Source: Patescibacteria group bacterium
GTDB lineage: Bacteria; Patescibacteriota; Dojkabacteria; JAKAPS01
Assembly (NCBI GenBank): GCA_025450075.1
Contig: JANWIC010000010.1
Location: 1 to 32,418, forward strand
DNA: 32,418 nt
Direction: 5' to 3'
The notes beneath the pieces were generated by a model that made no database searches, was not told the origin of the DNA, and saw only the letters and a list, made by a program, of their open reading frames with translations. Positions 15,647 through 30,004 of this stretch are shown one piece after another (position 1 is the first letter of the stretch; each line of letters begins with the position of its first letter). The position numbers and the translations under genes are program-made.

Positions 15647-15849
15647 TTATAGGTATAGCTGCATTACATGTTTCCGAATTTCTAAATCGGGATCATTTGA
15701 AAGTTTATTTATATCCTTTCTATTTCTTTCATGCATTCTACCAGATACTATTGTGCCAAAATTACTTTTAATTTTGCATTAAGATGTACAGATAAACTTC
15801 TTGATTGGAGAACTTTAATAGAAGAATATTCTGATGCTTTATCACTCAT
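15647..15849 (-). pseudogene. Small ORF split by a frame change
   Basis: A good ribosome binding site (AAGGAAAGGGG) precedes an ATG at 15849, 28 bases after the Mpl-like stop. This frame gives 33 residues (MSDKASEYSS...KVILAQ) and stops at 15748. An overlapping frame from about 15779 to 15647 encodes SNFGTIVSGRMHERNRKD and LSNDPDLEIRKHVM. Joined by a one-base shift in the A-rich stretch near 15770, they would make one plausible protein of about 67 residues. This could be a true frameshift, a sequencing error in a homopolymer, or a recoding site. No family is recognised. Confidence 0.4.
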
Positions 15850-15877
15850 TTGTACCCCTTTCCTTAAATAATATATA

Positions 15878-17269
15878 TTAGTTTGCCGAACTAAAATAGT
15901 TAATGAGGCCACCAAAATTACCTGATGACATAAAAAGAAGAATATCCCCTTCATTTATTTCACTTTCAATTTCTTGTTTTAAAGCGTCAAATGTATCGAA
16001 ACCGCATGCATCGTGTCCAATTGCTTGAGCAATATCATTGGATGTGACACGAGAATCTTCAGGTACTGCATCAGGATGATACACGGGTGCCACATATATC
16101 TTATCAGCATCATCAAAATATCCAGTATATCCCTCAAGACTATCTTTCAGACGGGATGAGAGTGTATGCGGTTCGAAAACAGCCATAATCTTTTGATGAG
16201 GAAATCTTTCTTTGACAGCAGCAATGCTGGCCGCTGCCTTTATTGGTGAATGGGCAAGATCGTCGATGACAATATATGGTTTTTCTTTTCGAATTTCAAG
16301 ACGACGTCTCACACCTTTAAATTCCTCAACTGTGCTTTGCAAAATTTCCATATCAATATCTAAATACATCCCAACTGCTATTCCCATTACAAGGTTCTGG
16401 ATATTATGTATTCCTATTATTGAAGTGAAAAATTCGTAGTGCTGTTCTCCAACCTGAATACGAAACCGTATACCATGAGCTTCATAAATATAGTCAATTA
16501 ATGAAGCATATACTTCTCGATCTGGATCCTTTATATCGGTATTTACAACGAATATTTTTCTGCTATCTTCAAATCCTCCGGTTACTTTATCTATATTATC
16601 CCCATGTTTATTTACAAAAATACTACCATCTTCATGCATTAATTCAATTCCTTTTCTATATGCATTGATATATTCGTCTTCGCTTTTATATATGTCAATA
16701 TGATCGTATTTTGCGGCATTGATGATAAAGATCGAGGGGTGATAATACAAAAATTTTGCGACAGGGTCAACTCGGGAATTAATATATTCATCTCCTTCAA
16801 TAACCGACCAATCAGAGTCGGTAATCCGAACTCCATCTGAAAAATTTAATGGAATCCCACCAATTGCAAAAGTCGGATGCATACCAGCTTTTTCTAATAA
16901 TAATGAGATAAATGATGATATGGTAGTCTTTCCATAAGTTCCAGCAGCCACGATAGACTGAGGTTTTAAAACATATTCTTCAATAAATCCTGCATATCCT
17001 ACAAAATGTTTAATCCCTAATTCTTTTATTTTAAGATATTCTACATTATTTTGTAATATTGCTGGCCCAACAACAGCAATGTCGATATCACCGGTGATAT
17101 GTTCAGTCTTAAATCCAACTTTTATAGGTATATTATGTTCCTGCAAATAGGTGCTGATAGGAGGATAGAATCCTTTATCTGAACCTTCAACCTCATGGCC
17201 TTTTTCCTGCATACTGACCGCAAGAGGTGCCATCATTACTCCGCAAATGCCAACGAAATATATTTTCAT
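15878..17269 (-). CDS. mpl: Mpl-like Mur ligase (UDP-MurNAc:tripeptide ligase)
   Basis: The 463-residue protein is a complete Mur ligase. Mpl in other bacteria attaches the recycled L-Ala-gamma-D-Glu-mDAP peptide to UDP-MurNAc using ATP. The N-terminal UDP-binding domain has IYFVGICGVMMAPLA and the Mpl-typical EGSDKGFYPPIST (28-40). The P-loop is GTYGKTT (110-116), with Tyr replacing the usual His. GDEYINSRVDPVAKF, KYDHIDIY, FKGVRRRLEIR and VIDDLAHSP match the Mpl rather than the MurC series. Its ATG overlaps the stop of the DUF1611 gene (ATGA). Whether the third residue is DAP cannot be told. Confidence 0.85.
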   Translation of the reverse strand: MKIYFVGICGVMMAPLAVSMQEKGHEVEGSDKGFYPPISTYLQEHNIPIKVGFKTEHITGDIDIAVVGPAILQNNVEYLKIKELGIKHFVGYAGFIEEYVLKPQSIVAAGTYGKTTISSFISLLLEKAGMHPTFAIGGIPLNFSDGVRITDSDWSVIEGDEYINSRVDPVAKFLYYHPSIFIINAAKYDHIDIYKSEDEYINAYRKGIELMHEDGSIFVNKHGDNIDKVTGGFEDSRKIFVVNTDIKDPDREVYASLIDYIYEAHGIRFRIQVGEQHYEFFTSIIGIHNIQNLVMGIAVGMYLDIDMEILQSTVEEFKGVRRRLEIRKEKPYIVIDDLAHSPIKAAASIAAVKERFPHQKIMAVFEPHTLSSRLKDSLEGYTGYFDDADKIYVAPVYHPDAVPEDSRVTSNDIAQAIGHDACGFDTFDALKQEIESEINEGDILLFMSSGNFGGLINYFSSAN

Positions 17270-18366
17270 AAAGTGTTTTCTAATACTATTTTTTCTACTG
17301 CACGGGCAATCTCTCCTGTCGGAAAACGAATCATATCTTCGACAGGAAGTCCTGTTTCATCTGTATATTGTTTCATGATTTCTTTTGCCTCCTGCTCAGG
17401 CATCCCATTTGAATTAACTGCAATCCCTATAAATTCTGGAATTCGAATTGGAAGTGCCATTTCCTTGTATTTTGTTATCATTACTTGAGGAGCAGGTAAT
17501 TTAATTAGTTTTGAACCAATGGAATGTCTTCTTTGCGGACGTTGGATAAGGATTGCATGAGAAGGCATACCACCATGAAGTAACGCTAGTGATACAGGTG
17601 CATATCCCGGATGGAATATTCCTCCCTGTCCTTCTATTACAAGAAAACGGTTATCAGGATCTGCTTCCAATACTAATTGCTCAACTGCTCCAGGCATAAA
17701 ATCACCTATTACCCTATCGATTGATATACCTTTTCCCTTAATCATAATTGCAGTCTGACCGGTTGCTAATAATTCTCCTTTTATTCCCTTTTGAGAAAGA
17801 AGCCTTTCAATTTCAAACCCCACAGTCATTTTTCCTATTGCAGCATCAGCTGCACAGGTCAGGATAATGGGTTTTTTCATTACATATGCTTTGCATGAAG
17901 CAACAGCTAATCCCTCTGGTGGAACCCGTACATCCCACATAGTTACTTGATGCTTGCATGCAAGCTCTTTAAGTTCGCTATCCTGATTTAATTCATAATG
18001 CATTCCGCTCATTATATGCATGCCATGTGAAATTGCTAATTTTATAACATTCTTTAATTCTCCGCTCATTTCACCACCGGATGGGGCAATTCCTATCATA
18101 AAGATATCGGGAATGTGAGATGGATTTCTTTGCAAATAGTGATCTAAGCTTTGATACAACATTACATCTGGACGAATGCCAAGTATCTCTTCTACATTTT
18201 GCTCTGTTGCACTGCTGTCTATTACTCCGACAATGTGCGTTTTCGCATACCGAAGATAACCATCAGCTGTTTTAGCACGCAAAGGGTATTGTTCTCTGCA
18301 TTTTCGTGAAAAAGCCTGGTCAGCATAGATAAGGACTGAATGGGTTTCAATTGTAAAATCAAACAT
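17266..18366 (-). CDS. DUF1611 (DgcN-like) P-loop protein
   Basis: The frame is open further upstream, but the ATG at 18366, overlapping the MurE-like stop by eight bases, is preferred and gives 366 residues. It matches DUF1611: N-terminal Rossmann-like part, then a P-loop CAADAAIGKMT (171-181; usually GTDCAVGKMT), LLATGQTAIMIKGKG (199-213), FLVIEGQGGIFHPGY (241-255) and LALLHGGMPSHAIL. A DUF1611 member (DgcN) has been reported to N-acetylate D-glutamate, and the family is often linked to dipeptide epimerases. Lying between two Mur ligases, it probably handles D-Glu or a D-Glu peptide. The biochemical role here is inference. Confidence 0.82.
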   Translation of the reverse strand: MFDFTIETHSVLIYADQAFSRKCREQYPLRAKTADGYLRYAKTHIVGVIDSSATEQNVEEILGIRPDVMLYQSLDHYLQRNPSHIPDIFMIGIAPSGGEMSGELKNVIKLAISHGMHIMSGMHYELNQDSELKELACKHQVTMWDVRVPPEGLAVASCKAYVMKKPIILTCAADAAIGKMTVGFEIERLLSQKGIKGELLATGQTAIMIKGKGISIDRVIGDFMPGAVEQLVLEADPDNRFLVIEGQGGIFHPGYAPVSLALLHGGMPSHAILIQRPQRRHSIGSKLIKLPAPQVMITKYKEMALPIRIPEFIGIAVNSNGMPEQEAKEIMKQYTDETGLPVEDMIRFPTGEIARAVEKIVLENTL

Positions 18367-19639
18367 GAGATTCTTTCTTATGTAGGTATTGTAAAGCAAT
18401 TTCTTCTTCATTCCAAGGGAGTTCATTCGTTCCGATACACATACTCTTTTCATGCCCTTTACCGAGAAATGCAAGAATTGTATCTGGCTTTGCAAGAGAA
18501 ATACACTTTGCAATTGCCACTTCTCGTGATGGAATCAAAAAAAGATTTTTGTTTAATTGAAACTTAATTTTATCAATTCCTTCTAATATATCATTAGCAA
18601 TACCATCAAATGTTTCATCTCTCGGATCTTCTGATGTAATGACAATAGTATCGCAAAATTGAGATGCATATTCTCCCATTGGTTTCCTTTTATTTTTATC
18701 TCTTTTACCTGCGCATCCAAACAATGCAATAATTTTTTTGTCAGGATAAGATGTTGTTAATGTTGAAAAGAACTGTAGAAATGCATTTGGCGTATGAGCA
18801 AAATCAATAATTACTTTAAAGGGTGTTTCTTGGATAACATTCATTCTTCCTGCAATATTTCGGGTTTTTTCAATACCAGTTACGATGCCGCTTATACTCA
18901 TCCCTAAATTAATAGAAACACTGACTGCACCAAGCGCATTTTGAATATTGTATCTTCCATTAAAATGGAGTGTTAGAGGAAAGGAGATATTCGATAGCTT
19001 CATATGCAGCTGGTATCCATCTTCCATATTTTTAATATCCCGTGCGAAATATATTGGAAAATCTTTATTCTTTTTAGTTTCATCAAGAGAGAAACCTATG
19101 ATTTGCAATTGCTTTCCGATATCTTTTGCCTTTTCTATTAAATATGTGAAATTGAGATCATCAGCATTTAGCACCAGAAAACCTTTTGGTTTAACCATTG
19201 AAATAATACGAGATTTTGCTTCCCGATATGCTTCAAAAGTCTTATGATAATCCAGATGTTCTGGAGTAATATTGGTTATGATTGCAGCATCTAAAAATAT
19301 CCCATGGGCACGAAATTGGTCAAGGCCATGGGATGTCAATTCAAGAACAACATACTCAATACCTTTCCTCTCCATTTTTGCAAGATTTTGGTAAATATCT
19401 TTGCTTGATGGAGTTGAAGTATGAAGCCCCGTATCAAAAATTTCATCGTCAATCTTTCCTCCTATTGTTGAGATAATGCCTGTGCGTTTTCCGCTCGCTT
19501 TTAGAATTTGGAAAAGCATTTCAGATGTGGTTGATTTGCCATCTGTACCAGTTACCCCTATGACATGCATTCCCTTAGTCGGATTTTTATACCAAAGACG
19601 GTATCCTAAAGAGCGAATTTTTCGTAATTGATGTTTCAT
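18359..19639 (-). CDS. murE: MurE-like Mur ligase without the N-terminal UDP-binding domain
   Basis: MurE adds the third stem-peptide residue to UDP-MurNAc-L-Ala-D-Glu. This 426-residue protein has the ATP-binding and C-terminal Mur domains: P-loop GTDGKSTT (31-38), ELTSHGLDQFR, TNITPEHLDYHKTFEAY with the region of the carbamylated Lys, GRYNIQNALGA, and C-terminal SEDPRDETF and GKGHEKS. The EDPR replaces the DAP-specific DNPR, so the amino acid added is uncertain. The P-loop starts at residue 31 instead of about 115, so the domain that grips the UDP-sugar is missing. Its ATG overlaps the sigma-factor stop by four bases (ATGA). Confidence 0.85.
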   Translation of the reverse strand: MKHQLRKIRSLGYRLWYKNPTKGMHVIGVTGTDGKSTTSEMLFQILKASGKRTGIISTIGGKIDDEIFDTGLHTSTPSSKDIYQNLAKMERKGIEYVVLELTSHGLDQFRAHGIFLDAAIITNITPEHLDYHKTFEAYREAKSRIISMVKPKGFLVLNADDLNFTYLIEKAKDIGKQLQIIGFSLDETKKNKDFPIYFARDIKNMEDGYQLHMKLSNISFPLTLHFNGRYNIQNALGAVSVSINLGMSISGIVTGIEKTRNIAGRMNVIQETPFKVIIDFAHTPNAFLQFFSTLTTSYPDKKIIALFGCAGKRDKNKRKPMGEYASQFCDTIVITSEDPRDETFDGIANDILEGIDKIKFQLNKNLFLIPSREVAIAKCISLAKPDTILAFLGKGHEKSMCIGTNELPWNEEEIALQYLHKKESHV

Positions 19640-20217
19640 ACTTGTTGTAATTGTTTTTTAAGTTTTTCACGAAGTCTTTGTAATCTTGTCCCGACATTTG
19701 TTTCACTAAGTCCTACAAGATTTGCTATCTGTTTATTAGACATATCTTCAAAGTACTTATAATATAGCAAGAATTGATCCTGCTCATCAAATTGCCTGAA
19801 GATTTCATATAATTGCTTTTCTTCTTCACTGACAATAATCTGCAGCTCAATTGATAATACATTATCTGCAACACTATCTTCTAACGTTGTACCAGACTCA
19901 TCATCACGTGAGAAAGACTGCTGCAAAGAAATTGCAGGTTCTCTCACATTCTTCTTTCGAAAATAATCATACAATGTATTTCGAGCTATCCGATAAAGCC
20001 AACTTTTCACACTAACACCTTCCCATTGAAATGTATCAATTCCCTTTAATGCTTTTTCAAAAGTTATGGAGGCCATGTCTTCAGCCGTCTCTTTATCCTT
20101 CACAAAACCATGAACATACCGTAAAATATCCTGATAATAGGTACGGTAAAAATAGTCGAAATACTTCTTATCCTTTTGGGCCTTTTTAGCAATTTCTGCC
20201 TCTTCTGATGGTTTCAT
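19636..20217 (-). CDS. ECF-type sigma-70 factor
   Basis: The 193-residue protein has only the sigma-2 and sigma-4 regions, as in ECF sigma factors. Sigma-2 (about 20-87) includes FYRTYYQDILRYVHGFV, ETAEDMASITFEKAL and SWLYRIARNTLYDYFRKK. Sigma-4 (about 125-190) includes FEDMSNKQIANLVGLSETNV and GTRLQRLREKLKKQL, a helix-turn-helix. No anti-sigma gene lies next to it. Both ends overlap their neighbours by four bases (ATGA), so it is locked into the translation of the Mur cluster. It probably directs transcription of envelope genes, perhaps including its own operon. Confidence 0.92.
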   Translation of the reverse strand: MKPSEEAEIAKKAQKDKKYFDYFYRTYYQDILRYVHGFVKDKETAEDMASITFEKALKGIDTFQWEGVSVKSWLYRIARNTLYDYFRKKNVREPAISLQQSFSRDDESGTTLEDSVADNVLSIELQIIVSEEEKQLYEIFRQFDEQDQFLLYYKYFEDMSNKQIANLVGLSETNVGTRLQRLREKLKKQLQQV

Positions 20218-21005
20218 TCTTCTTCGATGAATCTGTGAAAAATGGTCTGTATTTTATCTGAAGGGATTTCAAATGTATTCAATGCATTGCATGCATCATC
20301 AAATGAAATTTCAAAGTGTTTTGCAAGAGATACCGATGCGGTCAATAACGGATAGATAAACTCAGGGAATGATTTTTCAACAACACATACCTGTCCTGCA
20401 TGACCAAGCATAAAACTTTGCTTTTCTTCTACAAAATAGTAATCAGGAACAGGATCTTCTTTAATCCCAAAATATACAACTCCTTCTGTTTTTCCCTGTG
20501 CCAGACTTTTTGTTCGCATATTATCATTGTTCAAAACCAATATACCGTCGGGTTGCATTTTTTCAACTAAAAGCAGTTCCAGGTTTAACGAACCTGGATG
20601 AGAATTTAATACAATTACTGCTGAAGGGGATAAAAAACTCATCCAATATTTCATGATACCAGCATCATGACTGTTAATCTGGAGTACTAATATGCCACTA
20701 TTCGGTTTTAGAAAAAGAAGACGAGCAATTGCATGAGTTAAGGTAGTTATCCAGGCAAATGGGTTTGTTGGAACTTCATTAATTCCTAAAATTGTTAATG
20801 GAATGTCCCAGTCATATTGAGGAGAATGAATGATTCTCCTTACTTTTTTACCACTTCGTTTCAGAATTGTGAATACTGCTTCTCTTGCAATATCTGTTCC
20901 ATACCAGCCTCCGACTGCAATAATTTCTAATTGATGTTTGTTGACTGCAATGAGACAAAGTGATGTCAATATTCGTCTCAATCCTCTTCTAAAAAGTATC
21001 TTCAT
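20214..21005 (-). CDS. MurF-like protein with degenerate P-loop and no C-terminal domain
   Basis: The 263-residue protein aligns by eye with the central domain of MurF-type ligases found in CPR genomes. IIAVGGWYGTDIAREAVFTI corresponds to the MurF Walker A region (normally GSVGKTS), PQYDWDIPLTILGINEVPTN to the NNEIGVPLTIL segment, and AVIVLNSHPGSLNLELLL, PDGILVLNNDN and ACNALNTFEIPSDKIQ to later MurF parts. The P-loop Lys and Thr are replaced by Thr and Asp, and the whole C-terminal domain is missing, so ATP-dependent ligation is very unlikely. Its start lies inside the last codons of murA and its stop overlaps the sigma factor start. It may be a structural or regulatory pseudo-enzyme. Confidence 0.65.
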   Translation of the reverse strand: MKILFRRGLRRILTSLCLIAVNKHQLEIIAVGGWYGTDIAREAVFTILKRSGKKVRRIIHSPQYDWDIPLTILGINEVPTNPFAWITTLTHAIARLLFLKPNSGILVLQINSHDAGIMKYWMSFLSPSAVIVLNSHPGSLNLELLLVEKMQPDGILVLNNDNMRTKSLAQGKTEGVVYFGIKEDPVPDYYFVEEKQSFMLGHAGQVCVVEKSFPEFIYPLLTASVSLAKHFEISFDDACNALNTFEIPSDKIQTIFHRFIEEE

Positions 21006-22299
21006 AGACTGTCACATCTCCTCCAAGTTTTGTTAATATATCAGCTATATGGGGATATCCCCTGTTAATATGTTCAGTCGATCGTAAAATTGATTTGCCG
21101 GTTGCGGCAAGCATCGCTCCTAGAAACATTACTCCCGTCCTGATATCAGGACAAGTTAATTCTGCTCCAGTAAGCGGGGTTTTCCCATGTACAAGTACTC
21201 TGTGATCATCCAATACATTTACATTTGCACCCATGTTCCGTAACGAGTCTGCATGTCGAACACGTCCATTATATAACTTTTCGAAAAAAAGAAATTCCCC
21301 ATCAGCTTGCGTTGCAAGAGGAATAAAGATAGGTAACAAGTCAGTTGGGAATTTCGGCCACGTATCAGAATATATTCCGATATTTGCATAGATATTAAAT
21401 GATTCATTTAATTTCAAATCCTGTTCTGATCGTATATGTATCGTATTACCATCAAATTCCCACATAGTATTAAAATATTTTAACACAACTAATATTGGAC
21501 GAAGGTCTTCAGGAATGACATGATGAATCCGGATATCACCACCGGTAAGCAATGTATAAACAATAAAGGTTGCAATATATACATGGTCTTTTATAATACT
21601 GCCTTCCGCACCATGAAGAGATGCAACCTGGACAACATGCAACCTATTCGAACCTATCCCATGGATTTGTGCACCCATAAGCTGTAGGAACTGGCAAAGG
21701 TTTCGCACATGAGGCTCAGATGCAGCATTTTCGATTATGACTTCTCCGTCTCCTAAAACATTTAAAAGAATTGCATTCTCAGTTGCCGTTACACTTGTTT
21801 CATATAAGAAAATATGACGCTTTTGTCCGGTCATATCTTCCTTTTTTTGAATTAAAACTTCATCAGTACCTTGAATTGTTTCAACATTGTATCCTGACTG
21901 TTCAAACACATCAAAATGGGCTGCCATACTTCTCAATCCTATCCTGTCTCCTCCAGGTCTCGTACATTTGACCTTCCCAAATCGTACAAGAAGCGGAGCT
22001 AAAACTAAATTTCCTCCCCGAATTCTTGCATATTCATCATTATCAATGTTTGAGCTTGTTAAATGGGAAGGATCTATGGTTAAACTCTCCCCATGATTGG
22101 CAAAATTACCAACTGCTCCGGAATGTGAAATAATTTTAACCATTGTTCTCACATCTGAAATGGCAGGACAGCCATGGAGGGTACTGGTTTCATTACTCAA
22201 CAAAGTTGCAGCAATTATAGGAAGAACAGCATTTTTACTTCCTGCTGCTTCTATCTCGCCTTGAAGTGGATTTCCCCCTTGAATGATAAATGTAGCCAT
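20989..22299 (-). CDS. murA: MurA, UDP-GlcNAc enolpyruvyl transferase (Asp variant)
   Basis: MurA transfers enolpyruvate from PEP to UDP-GlcNAc, the first committed step of peptidoglycan synthesis. The 436-residue protein is full length, with AAGSKNAVLPIIAATLL (18-34, Lys22/Asn23), LVLAPLLVRFGKV, and the C-terminal DIRTGVMFLGAMLAATG. In the active-site loop the usual Cys115 of PGGCxIG is replaced by Asp118 (RPGGDRIG). The Cys-to-Asp change is known from mycobacterial and chlamydial MurA and is associated with fosfomycin insensitivity. The ATG is 22 bases from the stop of the upstream secreted protein and its end overlaps the MurF-like gene by 17 bases. Confidence 0.94.
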   Translation of the reverse strand: MATFIIQGGNPLQGEIEAAGSKNAVLPIIAATLLSNETSTLHGCPAISDVRTMVKIISHSGAVGNFANHGESLTIDPSHLTSSNIDNDEYARIRGGNLVLAPLLVRFGKVKCTRPGGDRIGLRSMAAHFDVFEQSGYNVETIQGTDEVLIQKKEDMTGQKRHIFLYETSVTATENAILLNVLGDGEVIIENAASEPHVRNLCQFLQLMGAQIHGIGSNRLHVVQVASLHGAEGSIIKDHVYIATFIVYTLLTGGDIRIHHVIPEDLRPILVVLKYFNTMWEFDGNTIHIRSEQDLKLNESFNIYANIGIYSDTWPKFPTDLLPIFIPLATQADGEFLFFEKLYNGRVRHADSLRNMGANVNVLDDHRVLVHGKTPLTGAELTCPDIRTGVMFLGAMLAATGKSILRSTEHINRGYPHIADILTKLGGDVTVYEDTF

Positions 22300-22321
22300 T
22301 ACCTCATAAGTGAATAAATCA

Positions 22322-23101
22322 TTATCTTATTCCTGAATCAATCGAAATATTATATGTTATCGTTGTTGAAGTTCCCTGTATATTGAGAGTATATGATTTT
22401 TGTCCAAAAACTTGCTGGGTAAAAGTAATTGTGTATGATCCACGATTAAGTGCTATTAAATAGTTTCCGTTTGCATCTGTTTGGGTACTATAGCTATTTC
22501 CAGAAGTATCAGTAAAAATTAAAACGAAATTCGCTTCTAGTTTTGTACAACTAACCCCTGACATACAAACTGGCCTAGTTGGCCCATATACAACTGTACC
22601 GCTTACCCGAACTTGCATACCGGTTTGGACTGTTGGAGTTGTTGCATTTAATGTAGGAGTTGGAGTTGGAGAAAGTGTGATAGTTACAGGTGGTAATGTT
22701 TTAATAATATCGTTAAATATTTGTGTTTGTTCAGTAATTCCAATGATGTTTTCTTGATTTATTACCGATACAACAATATTTTTTTGTACATTTTGTTTTA
22801 CAACTGGATCAGTGATTGAAGGAATAACTGAGATAGCAAGCTTGTCATGTTGGATAATATCGTTTTTTTTCAAACTTTGTTCCCCAGTCTTATTTGCATA
22901 CATAGTCTCTTCATTTGCAAGTACGACAGCTGCATCTGCTTTTTGACTAGGATTTGCCATAAAACTTAATTCAGCATTTTGAAAAGTTTCTTTAATAGGG
23001 AAAAGCGGACTGTTCGCATCAACAAAAAATGATACGTCCAATATTCCAAAAAGGATAATTCCAATAATAGAAATTGCTGTTATTACCAGAGCTTTCTTCA
23101 T
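22322..23101 (-). CDS. Membrane-anchored protein with carboxypeptidase-regulatory-like domain
   Basis: The ATG at 23101 (MKKALVITAISIIGIIL) is preferred because the promoter -10 box lies six bases before it, giving a leaderless message and 259 residues. A signal or anchor helix at 3-21 is followed by a helical extracellular part with AELSFMANPSQKADAAV, a Thr/Pro linker (TLSPTPTPTLNATTPT), and a C-terminal beta domain with GTVVYGP, SYSTQTDANGNYLIALNRGSY and YTLNIQGTS that matches carboxypeptidase regulatory-like/CNA-B folds. Two Cys in PVCMSGVSC may pair. It is the first gene of the leftward Mur chain. Confidence 0.72.
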   Translation of the reverse strand: MKKALVITAISIIGIILFGILDVSFFVDANSPLFPIKETFQNAELSFMANPSQKADAAVVLANEETMYANKTGEQSLKKNDIIQHDKLAISVIPSITDPVVKQNVQKNIVVSVINQENIIGITEQTQIFNDIIKTLPPVTITLSPTPTPTLNATTPTVQTGMQVRVSGTVVYGPTRPVCMSGVSCTKLEANFVLIFTDTSGNSYSTQTDANGNYLIALNRGSYTITFTQQVFGQKSYTLNIQGTSTTITYNISIDSGIR

Positions 23102-23107
23102 ATCCAT

Positions 23108-23136
23108 ATTATGCGGACAAACAGGCACAATGTCAA
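23108..23136 (-). promoter_or_regulatory. Leaderless promoter of the Mur chain
   Basis: On the minus strand a perfect TTGACA (23131-23136) and CATAAT (23108-23113) are spaced by 17 bases. The expected transcription start coincides with the ATG at 23101. Confidence 0.65.
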
Positions 23137-23202: not shown

Positions 23203-25065
23203 ATGCGAAATGTTCGTGTATTTATAAAGAAACATAAAAAAGCAACCAGTATCATTTTAGCTATTCTGGTTTTCATCGTTGCAATTGTAATTTATGCAAT
23301 CATTGGTGTATTTCATATCAAGTCAACAGTAAATGCTATCCAGGCTGACATGACACAAATTAAGGTAGACCAAAATAGCAAATCTCTGCCAAAGCTTGTC
23401 GGGGATTTAAAACAAGTGAATTCACAATTGAATGAATTAGAAAATGAAAAGAATTATTTTTTCCCATTGCAGGTAATTCCATTTTTAAACATATATTATG
23501 CTAATGCAGGGTATGCTATTAATGGAGCTAAACTTCTTGATGGAGCTTTTATTAATATAATCCAATCTTCTGTTCCGCTTGCGGATGCATTAGGATATGG
23601 AGCTCAACAAGAAAACACACAAGGGAAAATCGGTATTATAGTAAATGCATTACCGGCAATTGCGGATTCAGTAAATGGCCAAATGGAAAGTTTGCAGGAA
23701 GCGCAAAAAAACTTCAATGCAATTAATCCTTCATACATTCCAAATGTATCAGTTAAAGGGACAAAACTTCAACCTGCATTTATTCAATATCGAAGCGGAT
23801 ATAATGACTTTATCGCTTTATTACCAAAGCTCACTTCAATTTCATCTACACTTGAATCTGCATTCGGGTCACCTACTCCAAAAAATTACTTGCTTTTATT
23901 GGAAAATGATAAAGAACTGCGACCTGGTGGAGGCTTTATAACTGCTTATGGATACTTAAATTTCAATAAGGGAAACTTAGGGAAAATAGCTACAAACAAT
24001 ATCTATTATTTAGATGGAATAGATCATCCAAATGTAAAACCTCCTGTTCAAATTCAACAATATATCATCCAGGATTCATCTTCTCCCATTTGGTATATGC
24101 GGGATGCAAATTACAGTCCAGACATACCAACTGACGCTAAGGTGATTGAACAAATGTATTCGACAATACCTTCAAGCAAAGTACCTCCAATTGACGGAGT
24201 TGTTTTTATCAATACCCAACTGGTGGCTTCGATATTGAATGTAACTGGACCGATTTATGTATCAGAATACAAACAAACTGTTAGTTCATCAACTGCTTCA
24301 TATCTAATGGAATATTATGCAGAGAAAGTTGATGTAAACAATCCGACAAATAATAAAAAATTTATCAATTATTTTCTGAGCGATATTGAATCAAAAATTT
24401 TTAGTTTAAACAAAGGAGACCTGGTCAATTTCATGCAATTTCTCATTGAACAATCCCAGCAAAGAAATGTTATGGCATATGCAAATGATTCTTCGGTAGA
24501 AAGTGTCATTAATACATATAACTTTGGTGGAGCATTTCCAAAACCAAATTCCAATGATTTTATTGGAATTGCTGATGCAAATGTATTAAGCGGTAAATCC
24601 GATTTCTATATCCATCGTTCCATAACACAATCAGTAAAAGCGACTTCAAAAGGTGTTCTTGAAACGGTTAATATCACCTTTATCAATGACCATGTTGGAG
24701 ATGGATGGCTTAACCATAACTGCAAAACCTGGCTACGAGTTTATGTACCACAAGGTTCAAAACTTCTTTCAATGACAGGTGATGACCAATACTATAACGG
24801 TCCAACAAGAAGAGTATATGATGAATTAGGATACACGGTGTTTGATACTCACTTGACAGTTCCTTTAAAAAACACCCTAACTGGTCAAAATGGCGTTGTT
24901 ACTCTCGCTTTATCATATTATCTTCCCCCATCATTCAAATTAGAAAACCATTACTCACTTTCACTTTTTAAACAATCAGGGATTGCCGATATTTCAGTAG
25001 CTTCTACTTTTAACGGAAATACTCAAAAAGCTGATATGATAAAAGATACAACAATTTCATTTTGA
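23203..25065 (+). CDS. DUF4012 membrane-anchored protein
   Basis: The 620-residue protein has a basic N-terminus, a membrane segment at about residues 15-37, a helical region (40-210), and then the DUF4012 signature YLLLLENDKELRPGGGFITA (about 228-247) followed by YGYLNFNKG and a long extracellular beta-rich part to the C-terminus. DUF4012 proteins are widespread in Actinobacteria and CPR, often near polysaccharide or cell-wall genes, but no activity is established. The C-terminal half (NVTFINDHVGDGWLNHNC, RVYVPQGSKLLSM) resembles a surface domain. It converges with the DUF2079 gene, overlapping by nine bases. Confidence 0.85.
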   Translation: MRNVRVFIKKHKKATSIILAILVFIVAIVIYAIIGVFHIKSTVNAIQADMTQIKVDQNSKSLPKLVGDLKQVNSQLNELENEKNYFFPLQVIPFLNIYYANAGYAINGAKLLDGAFINIIQSSVPLADALGYGAQQENTQGKIGIIVNALPAIADSVNGQMESLQEAQKNFNAINPSYIPNVSVKGTKLQPAFIQYRSGYNDFIALLPKLTSISSTLESAFGSPTPKNYLLLLENDKELRPGGGFITAYGYLNFNKGNLGKIATNNIYYLDGIDHPNVKPPVQIQQYIIQDSSSPIWYMRDANYSPDIPTDAKVIEQMYSTIPSSKVPPIDGVVFINTQLVASILNVTGPIYVSEYKQTVSSSTASYLMEYYAEKVDVNNPTNNKKFINYFLSDIESKIFSLNKGDLVNFMQFLIEQSQQRNVMAYANDSSVESVINTYNFGGAFPKPNSNDFIGIADANVLSGKSDFYIHRSITQSVKATSKGVLETVNITFINDHVGDGWLNHNCKTWLRVYVPQGSKLLSMTGDDQYYNGPTRRVYDELGYTVFDTHLTVPLKNTLTGQNGVVTLALSYYLPPSFKLENHYSLSLFKQSGIADISVASTFNGNTQKADMIKDTTISF

Positions 25066-26448
25066 TTTCATCCGTTTGATTACTTCCCAACCGTCTTTAT
25101 TAAATACATAGACATACCCATGTTGCAGCCTGTCATTAATGATTTCCTGAATTTGCTTAAAACTTCCTAATGGCCAAACATCTAATGAATCTGATACGAT
25201 TATATAATCTGCATCGTAAACTTTCCTGCTGTACCCGATCACATAAATATTATTCCTTTGAGCAAGATGGCTAACCAATGGATTTTGTGCAATGACAGAT
25301 GCAGACGACGGAATATATGAAAGTGCAATATATCCTGTTTGTTGTACCTGGGAAAGCATAAAGCTGGATGGTTCAAACAGCTGCTTAAATGGAAATACTG
25401 CTATGGATGCAATGTTAATACTTAATATACATAACAGGAGATAAATTCGAATTTTTGAAAACAATTTGTATCTTGAAAAAATGACAAGAGCATCTATTGC
25501 CGCAAAAAAAAGTACCGGAGTTATAGTTGCAGTATAATGGCCACGCACAGACCAGTTTAGTGAAACGGAAGATAAGAACCTCTCAAAAAGAAGAGGTATT
25601 TCTAGTATAACAAGAGGAGAAAATAAAGAAAGAAAAAGAAGTGGAAGAAAAATTAAAAAAATCGTGAGCGCCTTTTGTCCAGGTGTAAACAGAGTATGAA
25701 TGAATGTAAATGGATGAAGTATTATAGAAAGTACAGCATGCGGAAGATCCTGCCCTAGGGCAGAATAATTCCAATACGAATAACCCACTCCTCCTGAAAA
25801 TGCAGGAATAACAACTTTAGTTAATAGATAAAATACAATAACTCCTGAAATAAATAATATAATTCCCTGTTTCCATTCTTTTTTCAAAATCAAATAAATA
25901 CCCAAAAAAGCTACTAGTATCGTCATGTCTTCTTTTACAAGCAATAAAAGCAAAATTAAAGGAATATATACCCATTCTTTTTTTTGCCATATCGCATAAA
26001 GTGCAAAACTAATTATTGGAACTGCAAATGCTACTTCATGAAAATCAAATCCCACTGTACTTTGTATTCCCCAATAAATGCTGTAACTGATTGAAATTAA
26101 AATTGCATTTTTGATTCCAAGTTTTTTCTCTGCAAACCAATAAATCGGAAATACTGACAAGCTAAGTAAAGCTGCTTGGGCAATAAGAAGTGAGTATGGG
26201 GATGGAATAATCCAATAAAGAGGTACAAGGAAGATTAGGATTGGAGAAAAATGGTCACCGAGGATATTCCCAACTCCGCGTATAGAACTTGATGGAATTT
26301 GGAAATGAGCATAATGCCAGATAACTTGTTCAAAAAGACCTAGGTCATAACCAAATGTTTTAAAATGGATATGCTGAATAATACTTACTGCACTATATAC
26401 AACAAATGCAGCAAAAACGATATATATGGGTGGAGAAATTCGTTTCAT
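25057..26448 (-). CDS. DUF2079 polytopic membrane protein
   Basis: The 463-residue protein has about ten membrane segments. The N-terminal part FKTFGYDLGLFEQVIWHYA and GDHFSPILIFLVPLYWI matches DUF2079, a family with a GT-C-like glycosyltransferase layout whose acidic DLGLFEQ region would lie in the first extracellular loop. FHEVAFAVPIISFALYA and KEDMTILVAFLG are also typical. The C-terminal 100 residues form a soluble extracellular domain ending VYVFNKDGWEVIKRM. It probably transfers sugars from a lipid carrier. It follows ftsI after 32 bases and is likely part of the division operon. Confidence 0.8.
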   Translation of the reverse strand: MKRISPPIYIVFAAFVVYSAVSIIQHIHFKTFGYDLGLFEQVIWHYAHFQIPSSSIRGVGNILGDHFSPILIFLVPLYWIIPSPYSLLIAQAALLSLSVFPIYWFAEKKLGIKNAILISISYSIYWGIQSTVGFDFHEVAFAVPIISFALYAIWQKKEWVYIPLILLLLLVKEDMTILVAFLGIYLILKKEWKQGIILFISGVIVFYLLTKVVIPAFSGGVGYSYWNYSALGQDLPHAVLSIILHPFTFIHTLFTPGQKALTIFLIFLPLLFLSLFSPLVILEIPLLFERFLSSVSLNWSVRGHYTATITPVLFFAAIDALVIFSRYKLFSKIRIYLLLCILSINIASIAVFPFKQLFEPSSFMLSQVQQTGYIALSYIPSSASVIAQNPLVSHLAQRNNIYVIGYSRKVYDADYIIVSDSLDVWPLGSFKQIQEIINDRLQHGYVYVFNKDGWEVIKRMKSK

Positions 26449-26480: not shown

Positions 26481-28256
26481 CTATTGAGGTGGAATTTTAT
26501 AATACAAAAACAACTCTTTTGCAATATCTGCCCAGAGCGGGACGGCTGTAGTTGCAGCATATAATCCCGCACGAGGGTATTTTAGCATGACAAGCATGAC
26601 AAATTTTGGATCTTTTGCCGGGGCATATCCAACATATGTGGCATTAATGATACCATCCGCATATCCTGCTTTATTCGAAAGCGGTACTTGTGCCGAACCG
26701 GTTTTGCTTGCAATTTCAGGCATATATTGTTTTAAAAATCGTAGTCCATAAGCCGGTTCTCCAGTTGTTGCGTATGTTAACATATCAGTAAGTTTGCTTG
26801 CTGTATCGGTAGAAATAACCCGGCCGATTGCAACAGGTTTTGTATCTTGCTCCTGACTATCTTTTACAACACTTTTTACAATATATGGTTGCATTCGGAT
26901 CCCTTTATTTGCAATAGTTTGATATATTCCAATTACCTGTAATGATGTTGCTCCATAAAACTGGCCGAATGAAGCGGTTGCAAGATCAATATCAGCCCAT
27001 GTTCCCGGATCAGGCACTAATCCAGTCTGCTCCCCTTGAAGTGTTATACCAGTCAGGGTGCCAATACCAAATGCTTTTGTATATTTTACTAAAAGATCTT
27101 TCCCTACAAGTTGAGCAACCATACTTGCACCGACATTTGAAGATTTTTTTAAAATTTCTGCCATATTCATTTTCCCATCCGGCTGCTTGTTAAAGTTATA
27201 CACATATTTTGTGTTTGCTTCATAATATCCTGAGCTGTCATTAAATATTGTATCGGGTGTTATCTTCTTTTCCTCAAGCGCAGCGGCAGCCGTTATCGCT
27301 TTCATCACAGATCCAGGTTCATAAACATTGGAAATCGCCTGGTTTTCAAATGAAGATTGCAATAAAGATGGATCTAGCTTTTTAGTCGGATCTTTACAAG
27401 CATCTTGTTTTGCAAAGACATAGTTATTGCAATCAAGGATATATCCGTTATAGTAGGTGTTAGGATCAAAGGTAGGATAATTTGCCATTGCAATAATTGC
27501 ACCTGACTTCGGATCCATAACAATAACACTGCCACTGTCTGCTTCCTGGTTATCAACCCAATAGGCAAGTTTTGTTTCAATAATTTTTTGTAAATGAGCA
27601 TCTACGGTAAGTGTAATATCTTCTCCAATGCTAGGCGGAATAAAATTGAAATTTGAATTAACAATTGGATTACCAAATTGATCCTTATTTCCAAATAAAT
27701 TTCCATCTACTCCTTTGAGGTCTCCATCAAAATATTGTTCTATTCCATATTGTCCTTCCCCAGAAGAAGGATATACAAATCCTAATACTTGCGAAAGAAG
27801 TGTGTTATTCGGATAACTTCGTTTTTGTGTAAGTATAAACTGGACAGAATTAGTATTCGTATTTGTTAATTTTGCCTCTATAGCTGATTTCTGATTTGGA
27901 GAAATACCCGTGCCGATTTGAAAATACTGTAATCCCTGGTTTTTTTGTTTTTCAAATAATGCTTTGTCAAAGGAAAATAGTGGTAAGACATTTTGTTCAA
28001 ATGATTGTAAATTTGTAATATTTGGAATATAAACATACGCATCATATTGCGGAATATTGATTGCAAGTTCTATCCCGTCTGATGATTTAATAATGCCACG
28101 AGAGGTCGAAATTGAAGTGGAATATTTTTGTTCACTATTGGCTAGAATTTGAAAACTGATATTATCATTTATCTGTAATTGATAAAGGCGATAAATAATG
28201 CTTACTGCAACAACGGCAATACAAATGCATATTACGAATATCCTGGTATTTCTCAT
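26481..28256 (-). CDS. ftsI: Class B penicillin-binding protein, FtsI/PBP2-like
   Basis: The 591-residue protein is a peptidoglycan transpeptidase of the septal FtsI type. A membrane segment lies at 5-25, followed by the pedestal domain with SRGIIKSSDGIELA (52-65), and the transpeptidase domain. The three active-site motifs are intact: Ser316-Val-Met-Lys319 in PGSVMKAITAA, Ser372-Ser-Asn374 and Lys518-Thr-Gly520 in ASKTGSAQVP. There are no PASTA repeats. It starts nine bases after the FtsL-like gene within the mraZ operon, which supports a septal role. Confidence 0.94.
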   Translation of the reverse strand: MRNTRIFVICICIAVVAVSIIYRLYQLQINDNISFQILANSEQKYSTSISTSRGIIKSSDGIELAINIPQYDAYVYIPNITNLQSFEQNVLPLFSFDKALFEKQKNQGLQYFQIGTGISPNQKSAIEAKLTNTNTNSVQFILTQKRSYPNNTLLSQVLGFVYPSSGEGQYGIEQYFDGDLKGVDGNLFGNKDQFGNPIVNSNFNFIPPSIGEDITLTVDAHLQKIIETKLAYWVDNQEADSGSVIVMDPKSGAIIAMANYPTFDPNTYYNGYILDCNNYVFAKQDACKDPTKKLDPSLLQSSFENQAISNVYEPGSVMKAITAAAALEEKKITPDTIFNDSSGYYEANTKYVYNFNKQPDGKMNMAEILKKSSNVGASMVAQLVGKDLLVKYTKAFGIGTLTGITLQGEQTGLVPDPGTWADIDLATASFGQFYGATSLQVIGIYQTIANKGIRMQPYIVKSVVKDSQEQDTKPVAIGRVISTDTASKLTDMLTYATTGEPAYGLRFLKQYMPEIASKTGSAQVPLSNKAGYADGIINATYVGYAPAKDPKFVMLVMLKYPRAGLYAATTAVPLWADIAKELFLYYKIPPQ

Positions 28257-28265
28257 CCCGTGCAG

Positions 28266-28583
28266 TTAATGTTCCATATTATAGCTGATTGCATTCGAAT
28301 TCGTCACATAGAGAATGTTATCAGCCTCATGCATGCCAAGTGTTTGAGCTTTTTGATAAACTTGATCAATATTTTGTGCATCTGCAATTTTTTCCTGTAA
28401 TACCTGGTTCTTGATACTTAAAGTAGAAATATTATTTGAGTAATCTGTTATATTGGTACTTTGAGTGTCTGAATGAGTCATCAAAACTAATAATGAAAAA
28501 ATGACAGCAAAATTTAAGAGTACGAGCAATGCTGTCAGCTTGTAGGTGGTAAATAAATGATTTTTTTCTATTCTTTTTCTCAT
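28266..28583 (-). CDS. ftsL: FtsL-like division protein
   Basis: The frame is open to a TTG at 28613 inside rsmH, but the ATG at 28583, eleven bases after the rsmH stop, is the better start and gives 105 residues. It is a bitopic protein: short basic cytoplasmic tail (MRKRIEKNH), one membrane helix (about 16-36), then an extracellular coiled coil (ISTLSIKNQVLQEKIADAQN) and a C-terminal part AQTLGMHEADNILYVTNS. This matches FtsL/FtsB-type septum proteins, which bridge FtsQ and FtsW/FtsI. Position between rsmH and ftsI favours FtsL. Confidence 0.78.
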   Translation of the reverse strand: MRKRIEKNHLFTTYKLTALLVLLNFAVIFSLLVLMTHSDTQSTNITDYSNNISTLSIKNQVLQEKIADAQNIDQVYQKAQTLGMHEADNILYVTNSNAISYNMEH

Positions 28584-28593
28584 ATATTGTGGG

Positions 28594-29532
28594 TCAATTA
28601 AGTACTTTTTCAAAACATCGAAGTTTTGCGCTTCTCGCGCGCTTGTTTCTATCTACTTCTTCTTTATCTGCCATTTGCATCTCACCAATCTCTCTATATT
28701 TTCCATTTTGAACAAAATGTCTTTTAATAATCTTATCTTCCAGTGAATGGAATGATAACCATGCTACTCTTCCATTGATTGCAAGAGAAGTATCAACTGC
28801 CTTTACTGCTTGTTCAATCCCTTCCATTTCGCTATTTACTGCAATCCGTAGTGCTTGAAATGTTTTTGCATACGGGTTTTTGTAATAAAAAGGGATACTT
28901 CTTTTAATTGCATCACAAAGTCCTCTGGTTGTCGTAATCGGCTTTTCTTTCCTTGCTGCAATAATTCCTCGCGCAATCCGTTTTGCAAAAACTTCTTCTC
29001 CATATTCGCGTAATATCTGTTCCAGTTCTTTTTCATACATTCCGTTAACTAAATCTGCTGCACTTACACCCAGTCTTTTATCCATTCTCATGTCTAATGG
29101 TCCATTTTGCATATAGCTGAAACCCTTTTCAGGTTCATCTATCTGGTATGAAGAAACTCCTAAATCAAAAAGAATTCCTGAAGCTTTTGTCTTAGTATAA
29201 CCTAGCATTGTTGTTACTTCAGTAAGAATCTGATCAAGATATTTGTAATTATTATGTGCAAGAGCTGCATAACAATCTCCTCTTTTGAAAATGAGGATGT
29301 CATCCATCTCATTAATCCTGATAAATTCTTGTTGTAAAAGAGCATTTGTATTGTGTTCAATCGCATCCTGATCTACATCAATACCAATACATAATCCTTC
29401 ATGCAGTCTTTTAATCATGGAATTAAAATGTCCACCTCCACCAACAGTACAGTCTACATAGATGCCTTCGTCTGTAATTTGTAAAAGATCAATAATTTTT
29501 TCTCTTAAAACCGGTTCATGATAATTCATCAT
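28594..29532 (-). CDS. rsmH: 16S rRNA m4C1402 methyltransferase RsmH
   Basis: RsmH (MraW) N4-methylates C1402 of 16S rRNA using S-adenosylmethionine. The 312-residue protein has the N-terminal YHEPVLREKIIDLL, the SAM-binding VDCTVGGGGHFNSMIK, ILFDLGVSSYQIDEPEKGFS, GPLDMRMDKR, FQALRIAVNSEM and RVAWLSFHSLEDKIIKRHF, all characteristic. The ATG shares one base with the mraZ stop (TAATG), so translation is coupled to mraZ. Confidence 0.97.
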   Translation of the reverse strand: MMNYHEPVLREKIIDLLQITDEGIYVDCTVGGGGHFNSMIKRLHEGLCIGIDVDQDAIEHNTNALLQQEFIRINEMDDILIFKRGDCYAALAHNNYKYLDQILTEVTTMLGYTKTKASGILFDLGVSSYQIDEPEKGFSYMQNGPLDMRMDKRLGVSAADLVNGMYEKELEQILREYGEEVFAKRIARGIIAARKEKPITTTRGLCDAIKRSIPFYYKNPYAKTFQALRIAVNSEMEGIEQAVKAVDTSLAINGRVAWLSFHSLEDKIIKRHFVQNGKYREIGEMQMADKEEVDRNKRARSAKLRCFEKVLN

Positions 29533-29960
29533 TACCCAATCTCATGTAATTTATCTGCAATCTGTGCACTGTTTTCATACAAATAGCTTTTTCTTTCAAC
29601 CCATTTTTCTTTATCCCAGATTTCAACCCATCTACTCAGGCCTAAAAATACTAATTCATCAGATAATTGCGCATATTCTATAAGGTTTTCAGGAAGAACA
29701 AATCTTCCCTGTGAATCCAAATCCGCTTCAACTGCTCCACCAATTAAAAACCTCGCTGTATCTCGCAAAGTATTATTAGTAAAAGGAAGAGTTTCTAAAG
29801 TTGAAGTTAGTCCTTCCCATTGGGATCTCGAAACCATAACAAGACATCTTTCATACCCTTGCGTAACAATACAAGTTCCTCCCAATTCATCACGGAATTT
29901 TTTAGGAACTGCAGTCCGATTCTTTTCTCCTAATTTTGTTCTGTATTCTCCGATGAGCAT
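29532..29960 (-). CDS. mraZ: Transcriptional regulator MraZ
   Basis: MraZ represses its own division operon by binding repeats near the promoter. The ATG at 29960 gives 142 residues beginning MLIGEYRTKLGEKNRTAVP, the standard MraZ start; an upstream GTG at 29984 lies inside the operator and is rejected. The two SpoVT/AbrB-like halves are visible: EKNRTAVPKKFRDEL and DLDSQGRFVLPENLIEYA. The C-terminus WDKEKWVERKSYL is also typical. The operator lies between promoter and start codon at 29981-30004. Confidence 0.95.
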   Translation of the reverse strand: MLIGEYRTKLGEKNRTAVPKKFRDELGGTCIVTQGYERCLVMVSRSQWEGLTSTLETLPFTNNTLRDTARFLIGGAVEADLDSQGRFVLPENLIEYAQLSDELVFLGLSRWVEIWDKEKWVERKSYLYENSAQIADKLHEIG

Positions 29961-29980
29961 AAGTGCAGATAAACTATTCA

Positions 29981-30004
29981 CCACTATTCACCACTTACAT
30001 CCAC
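29981..30004 (-). promoter_or_regulatory. MraZ operator: three GTGG repeats at 10-bp spacing
   Basis: On the minus strand GTGG occurs at 30001-30004, 29991-29994 and 29981-29984, each followed by six bases, so the period is exactly 10. This matches the direct-repeat type of MraZ-binding box in other bacteria. The repeats sit at the expected transcription start and just downstream of it, suited to repression. Confidence 0.75.

Follow-up and report, generated by a model that had tools for sequence, protein, structure and literature searches.

In the standard pathway of bacterial peptidoglycan synthesis, ligases form the bonds N-acetylmuramic acid (MurNAc)-Ala, Ala-Glu, Glu-third residue, third residue-D-Ala and D-Ala-D-Ala, and MurC and MurD are regarded as indispensable. 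The related ligase Mpl has a known role in recycling, with the P. arcticus enzyme showing a strong preference for tripeptide (PMC3060825). The window analysed here is a 32,418-nucleotide stretch (contig JANWIC010000010.1) of a Patescibacteria group bacterium from the class Dojkabacteria, and it carries a leftward chain of cell-wall genes running from murA to an Mpl-type ligase. In our judgement there is an even chance that the window encodes half of an alternative stem-peptide route, whereby the peptide would be put together without the nucleotide sugar and loaded onto it later. This reading is built on gene content, domain loss, phylogeny, synteny and co-occurrence, from which we infer each of the reactions.

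Compared with the canonical MurC-MurD-MurE-MurF pathway, the system shares MurA, MurE, MurF, MraY and a dcw-type (division and cell wall) cluster, together with Ddl, FtsW and MurG in relatives, whereas MurC and MurD are absent, the N-terminal domains of MurE and MurF are gone, and an ATP-grasp ligase, a pyridoxal-phosphate (PLP) enzyme and an NlpC/P60-like protein (P60) are added. Archaeal pseudomurein biosynthesis likewise clusters Mur ligases with an ATP-grasp protein and an MraY-like transferase, but it is archaeal, all four of its ligases have three domains, and the ATP-grasp likeness holds at the cluster level only (PMC11915815). No description of the present arrangement was found in a search of open-licence papers. 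The chain comprises the following genes, whose protein families were checked against Pfam and NCBIfam (UDP, uridine diphosphate; GlcNAc, N-acetylglucosamine; ECF, extracytoplasmic function).

22322-23101, minus strand: protein either secreted or anchored in the membrane; weak carboxypeptidase-regulatory-like match
20989-22299, minus strand: murA, UDP-GlcNAc enolpyruvyl transferase, matching PRK09369
20214-21005, minus strand: putative MurF-like pseudo-ligase lacking a P-loop, from sub-threshold Mur matches and predicted fold
19636-20217, minus strand: ECF sigma factor, with sigma-70 regions 2 and 4
18359-19639, minus strand: MurE-like ligase without the N-terminal UDP-sugar-binding domain, matching TIGR01085
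17266-18366, minus strand: DUF1611 protein, with an N-terminal (Rossmann) and a C-terminal (P-loop) domain
15878-17269, minus strand: Mpl-type ligase, with PF01225, PF08245 and PF02875

All seven leftward genes reported by an earlier note on this DNA lie at the positions it gave, and the family matches agree with its names. Every junction from murA to the Mpl-like gene overlaps, by 17, 4, 4, 8 and 4 bases, as that note had read them.

Within the genome that contains the window (93.5% complete), a search with the Mur-ligase domain PF08245 at E<=10 recovers the MurE-like protein, the Mpl-type ligase, the pseudo-ligase and a MurF fragment at a contig end, a fifth match being an unrelated ATP-binding cassette transporter ATPase; MurC and MurD were not found by this search. 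The genome therefore lacks the full canonical murC-F set that the earlier note had named as telling against its proposal. Comparisons extend over three nested sets, namely the order (10 genomes), the class (86) and sampled members of the phylum (380). MurD occurs above its curated cut-off in 17 of the 86 class genomes, with a contig-edge fragment in G078. Assembly gaps are ruled out as the cause of the missing genes, since MurC and MurD were also not found in relatives assembled into few contigs (G005, with 2 contigs; G036 and G043, with 1 each), nor, elsewhere in the phylum, in G380 (3 contigs, 100% complete, three Mur ligases). Class genomes with MurD carry MurC-type ligases together with MurE and MurF that have the N-terminal domain, whereas in MurD-less class genomes the ligase is Mpl-type, MurE and MurF lack this domain, and a conserved operon of PLP enzyme, ATP-grasp and NlpC/P60 genes is present. 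Separately, in class family f15 (0.5-0.9 Mb) many genomes have no or only one Mur-type ligase, which suggests loss of the wall pathway there.

The Mpl-type ligase contains all three Mur domains, PF01225 for the UDP-sugar among them, and no other Mur ligase found in its own genome retains that domain. Among the 54 class genomes with MurE above cut-off, 16 with MurD and 38 without, an Mpl-type ligase is present in 33 of the MurD-less genomes and in none of the others. The motifs divide in the same way: the first ligase is MurC-type where MurD is present (EACEYxxxF, GTHGK) and Mpl-type in those MurD-less genomes that have such a ligase (EGDEY...SKF..Y). In a maximum-likelihood tree, a single branch (99/95) sets all 36 proteins from MurD-less genomes apart, and they cluster with E. 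coli Mpl (100/98); this reference is a long branch and the only one for Mpl, which weakens the result. Judged by this phylogeny, the loader is Mpl-type. The window protein shares with Mpl the three Mur domains, the E. coli Mpl clade, the DEY...K(F) region and a best PDB match to 3hn7, the P. arcticus enzyme. It differs in being the sole loader of its genome, with no MurC or MurD alongside, and in having the P-loop GTYGKTT instead of GTHGKTT. The motif (S/T)AFFDKRSK, found only in Mpl (PMC3060825), is nearly kept in G006-G008 as SAFFDKxSK.

Loss of the sugar-binding domain is evident in both of the later ligases. The MurE-like protein scores 361 bits against a TIGR01085 cut-off of 257, the model match starting at position 76, and PF01225 was not detected at the N-terminus of this protein. 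Its P-loop, GTDGKST, lies at residue 31; where the coding start is present, the MurE P-loop begins at residues 124-147 in genomes with MurD versus 31-64 in those with an Mpl-type loader. A wrongly placed start hiding the domain is ruled out, as the reading frame could be extended by no more than 6 residues and already runs into the sigma gene. PF01225 is found in MurE and MurF of all five MurD-bearing genomes scanned and in none of the five MurD-less genomes scanned (E<=1). In MurD-less genomes MurF is either short at its N-terminus (the genome of the window, G006, G007, G009 and G085) or has predicted membrane segments instead; exceptions are G030 and G044, which have MurD yet a membrane-type MurF. 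MurT of the MurT/GatD amidotransferase is a known Mur ligase that, like the window MurE, has no N-terminal sugar-binding domain, but the window protein is a MurE by its model score and no GatD-like gene lies alongside.

Neighbour clustering around Mpl and MurE identifies three genes that repeatedly occur together, frequently beside mraY or mpl; they encode an NlpC/P60-like protein, an ATP-grasp ligase and a PLP enzyme. In the genome of the window these occur outside the window, on contig C16 (locus L231), as overlapping genes in the order PLP enzyme, ATP-grasp, P60 and mraY. The trio is adjacent in most of the 30 ATP-grasp loci examined, and the three genes are also neighbours in G380, elsewhere in the phylum. 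The PLP enzyme has a threonine-synthase/serine-dehydratase fold. The ATP-grasp protein scores 31.7 bits against a PF02655 cut-off of 23.2, with 9 of 10 homologues matching the model at E<=0.01, and its distant named relatives include, weakly, the glutamate-using amino-acid ligases BesA, MfnD and RimK. The P60-like protein reaches 19.8 bits against a PF00877 cut-off of 23, with the Cys (GIDCSG) and His invariant in the alignment. Among the 54 genomes, ATP-grasp is present in 1/16 with MurD versus 31/38 without, and P60 in 0/16 versus 30/38. Across all 86 class genomes P60 (35 genomes) and MurD (18 genomes) never occur together, and in both mixed families, f8 (2 and 7 genomes) and f17 (1 and 1), the split is without exception.

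Because the sugar-binding domain has been lost from MurE and MurF and kept only in Mpl, assembly off the sugar is the simplest order. In such a route the PLP enzyme (L231) would supply or racemise a stem amino acid, probably the second residue, and the ATP-grasp ligase would join the first two residues, forming the Ala-Glu bond normally made by MurD; the assignment is made because Mpl, MurE, MurF and Ddl (the last in relatives) cover the other four bonds. The MurE-like ligase, without its UDP-sugar domain, would add the third residue to the free dipeptide, and the Mpl-type ligase would load the free tripeptide (or a pentapeptide) onto the UDP-MurNAc that MurA and MurB provide. MurF, which has no canonical N-domain and is often membrane-anchored, may add D-Ala-D-Ala either at the membrane or while the peptide is still free, with MraY probably taking over after this step. 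Additionally, the P60-like protein, a predicted cytosolic peptidase, may trim, edit or salvage peptides, DUF1611 may modify a substrate in a few lineages, and the pseudo-ligase may serve as a conserved non-catalytic partner, perhaps of MurE. That the whole stem up to the pentapeptide is built free and then loaded by a single Mpl-type enzyme, which would be a new order of peptidoglycan assembly, is a more tentative proposition that we think probably does not hold.

The earlier note had proposed that a peptide may be built or salvaged off the UDP-sugar and then loaded by the Mpl-like enzyme. This is still the best reading, given the absence of MurC and MurD, the Mpl-type phylogeny and the domain loss in MurE, but the probable core genes, the PLP enzyme, ATP-grasp and P60 operon, lie outside the window and so out of sight of the note. 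If correct, the route would be a new way to make a bacterial wall, in which the peptide is made first and loaded later, and would show that a cell wall is possible without MurC and MurD; for pathway annotation it warns that missing murC and murD genes do not equal a missing wall. It also gives three uncharacterised enzyme families a concrete predicted function, and offers a testable answer to how such reduced, probably host-associated bacteria make a wall.

Several observations weigh against off-sugar assembly as drawn here. The Mpl-type protein of the window scores 226.9 bits, below the TIGR01081 cut-off of 388.7, which is passed by none of the 86 class members, and its Mpl motif is diverged (NSRVDPVAK). 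The association between genes has exceptions: G030 and G031 combine MurD with a weaker ATP-grasp match and have no P60, G001 and G017 have an Mpl-type ligase with a weak ATP-grasp match or none, and G053, G057, G060 and G077 have neither a detected MurD nor the new gene set. The Fisher p values for the association, 3e-7 to 1e-9, overstate independence, as the genomes are related. A MurI-type glutamate racemase was not found in the order (10 genomes), and it is because of this absence that the PLP enzyme is taken, as a guess, for a racemase supplying a D-residue. Moreover, pure synthesis needs no hydrolase such as P60. Alternatively, the stem peptide might be imported from host or neighbour walls, trimmed by P60, repaired by MurE and MurF and loaded by Mpl as in recycling, which is the known role of that enzyme (PMC3060825). 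P60, predicted to be of the papain type and with its Cys and His invariant, occurs only in MurD-less genomes, and in G380 a major facilitator superfamily (MFS) transporter gene lies between DUF1611 and mpl, both of which fit salvage. Nevertheless, salvage is unlikely to be the explanation: a dedicated ATP-grasp ligase and a PLP enzyme in the same operon indicate synthesis, no peptide importer is conserved next to these genes, and Mpl usually occurs alongside MurC and MurD, not in their place.

Enterococci possess a D-Asp ligase and racemase system, and a racemase-type enzyme with an ATP-grasp protein beside mraY fits such systems, the more so as the ATP-grasp family has no close relation to any characterised enzyme. 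The pair might accordingly add a side-chain or bridge residue, the second stem residue being absent or otherwise added; this is highly improbable, as it leaves unexplained both the consistent replacement of MurD by the module and the loss of the sugar-binding domain. The order of assembly itself may also be conventional, with the Mpl-type ligase acting as MurC on L-Ala, ATP-grasp acting as MurD on UDP-MurNAc-L-Ala, and MurE and MurF still using UDP-linked substrates despite the missing N-terminal domain. When overexpressed, mpl of E. coli rescues a murC mutant, so that Mpl can also accept L-Ala (PMC3060825), and therefore loss of the N-domain need not mean off-sugar assembly; the window protein, moreover, scores slightly higher with TIGR01082 (murC, 262 bits) than with TIGR01081 (227), both below cut-off. 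We consider conventional on-sugar assembly distinctly unlikely, because MurE and MurF have lost, in the same genomes, the N-terminal domain by which Mur ligases bind the wall precursor (PMC11915815), and because the tree places every MurD-less loader with Mpl and not with MurC. Off-sugar assembly followed by Mpl loading is thus the reading retained.

The gene order around murA, whose lack of conservation the earlier note would have taken as a refutation, is conserved. The core of murA, pseudo-ligase, in some cases the ECF sigma gene, and MurE recurs across the class, with the Mpl-type ligase next within the order. The series murA, pseudo-ligase, MurE and Mpl is found in eight other order genomes, comprising six complete cases, G009, in which the pseudo-ligase is diverged, and G006, in which the series is cut by a contig end; in the ninth, G004, the region is masked. 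The chain is consequently not a chance association. Two incidental features occur near these clusters, an antisense open reading frame (ORF) of 167-183 amino acids between MurE and DUF1611 in G007 (L042, 8473-9024) and G006 (L043, 8823-9326), and a Cas12-like REC1 domain (PF18501) near the wall cluster of G009 (L041, 124-768).

The ECF sigma gene lies between the pseudo-ligase and MurE in six further class genomes (G010, G011, G013, G014, G019 and G039). This shared position marks it as a long-standing component of the cluster, lost by the sister family, and rules out a recent insertion unique to this genome. As to the suggestion that the chain is controlled by its own sigma factor, the gene is conserved in place, although the best promoter match at the chain head is sigma-70-like.

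The pseudo-ligase follows murA in at least 15 class genomes, and a P-loop is absent from all 15 homologues examined. Its Mur matches are below threshold (PF08245, E=0.03; TIGR01143, E=8e-4), whereas hhalign gives 97.8% to MurE and 97.1% to MurF, and the best Foldseek match of its AlphaFold2 model (pLDDT, the predicted local distance difference test, 68) is MurF 4qf5 at E=1.4e-7. By these comparisons it has the central-domain fold of Mur ligases, the predicted fold matching MurF. The adjacent MurA scores 373 bits against a PRK09369 cut-off of 297 and carries Asp in place of the fosfomycin-target Cys (PGGDRIGLR). Most order members share this residue, and G010 and G014 have Cys; the substitution predicts fosfomycin insensitivity.

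DUF1611, which the earlier note had counted as a core part, occurs in only 4/86 class members and 4/380 sampled phylum members, and is a rare accessory rather than a MurD substitute. Replacement of MurD by this protein is ruled out, since most MurD-less genomes are without it, and a role as D-Glu supplier in place of MurI is unsupported, as MurI is missing from all 10 genomes of the order, 4 of which carry DUF1611. The protein belongs to the same Pfam family as the D-glutamate N-acetyltransferase DgcN, has the P-loop DAAIGKMT, and has three solved relatives, 2obn, 7xrj and 2g0t. It differs from DgcN in scoring far under the equivalog cut-off (209 bits against 480 for NF041892), in having no DgcA-type epimerase alongside and in being placed with Mpl. 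This placement holds in all six genomes where DUF1611 was found, for example in a Spechtbacterium (L060), in which the genes for DUF1611, Mpl and a PLP enzyme are direct neighbours. Because it recurs in two separate parts of the phylum, it suggests that DUF1611 acts on the same peptide as Mpl or on its D-residue.

The remaining features at the two ends of the chain are as follows.

26481-29984, minus strand: ftsI, an ftsL-like gene, rsmH and mraZ, the upstream part of the same division and cell-wall cluster
23108-23136, minus strand: sigma-70-like promoter match at the chain head, TTGACA-17-CATAAT, from a motif scan
15748-15849 (33 amino acids) and 15647-15736 (29 amino acids), minus strand: two tiny trailing ORFs, unsupported

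The chain continues the upstream mraZ-rsmH-ftsL-ftsI cluster. The promoter match is the best of 41, with 34 expected by chance at the threshold of the scan, and an RNA family search of the chain gave no match. The trailing small ORF that had been included in the chain is dropped, the tiny ORFs there being without support, and the secreted or anchored protein is not conserved at the same place in the relatives examined. Between ftsI and murA, the cluster is split by a DUF4012 protein (23203-25065, plus strand) and a multi-membrane protein (25057-26448, minus strand), neither of which was seen there in the relatives examined. The window also encodes, at 1582-2415 on the minus strand, a YfiH/laccase-type protein (PF02578); editing of wall precursors has been reported for YfiH-type proteins, and homologues of this one adjoin wall-peptide genes in G047 and G085.

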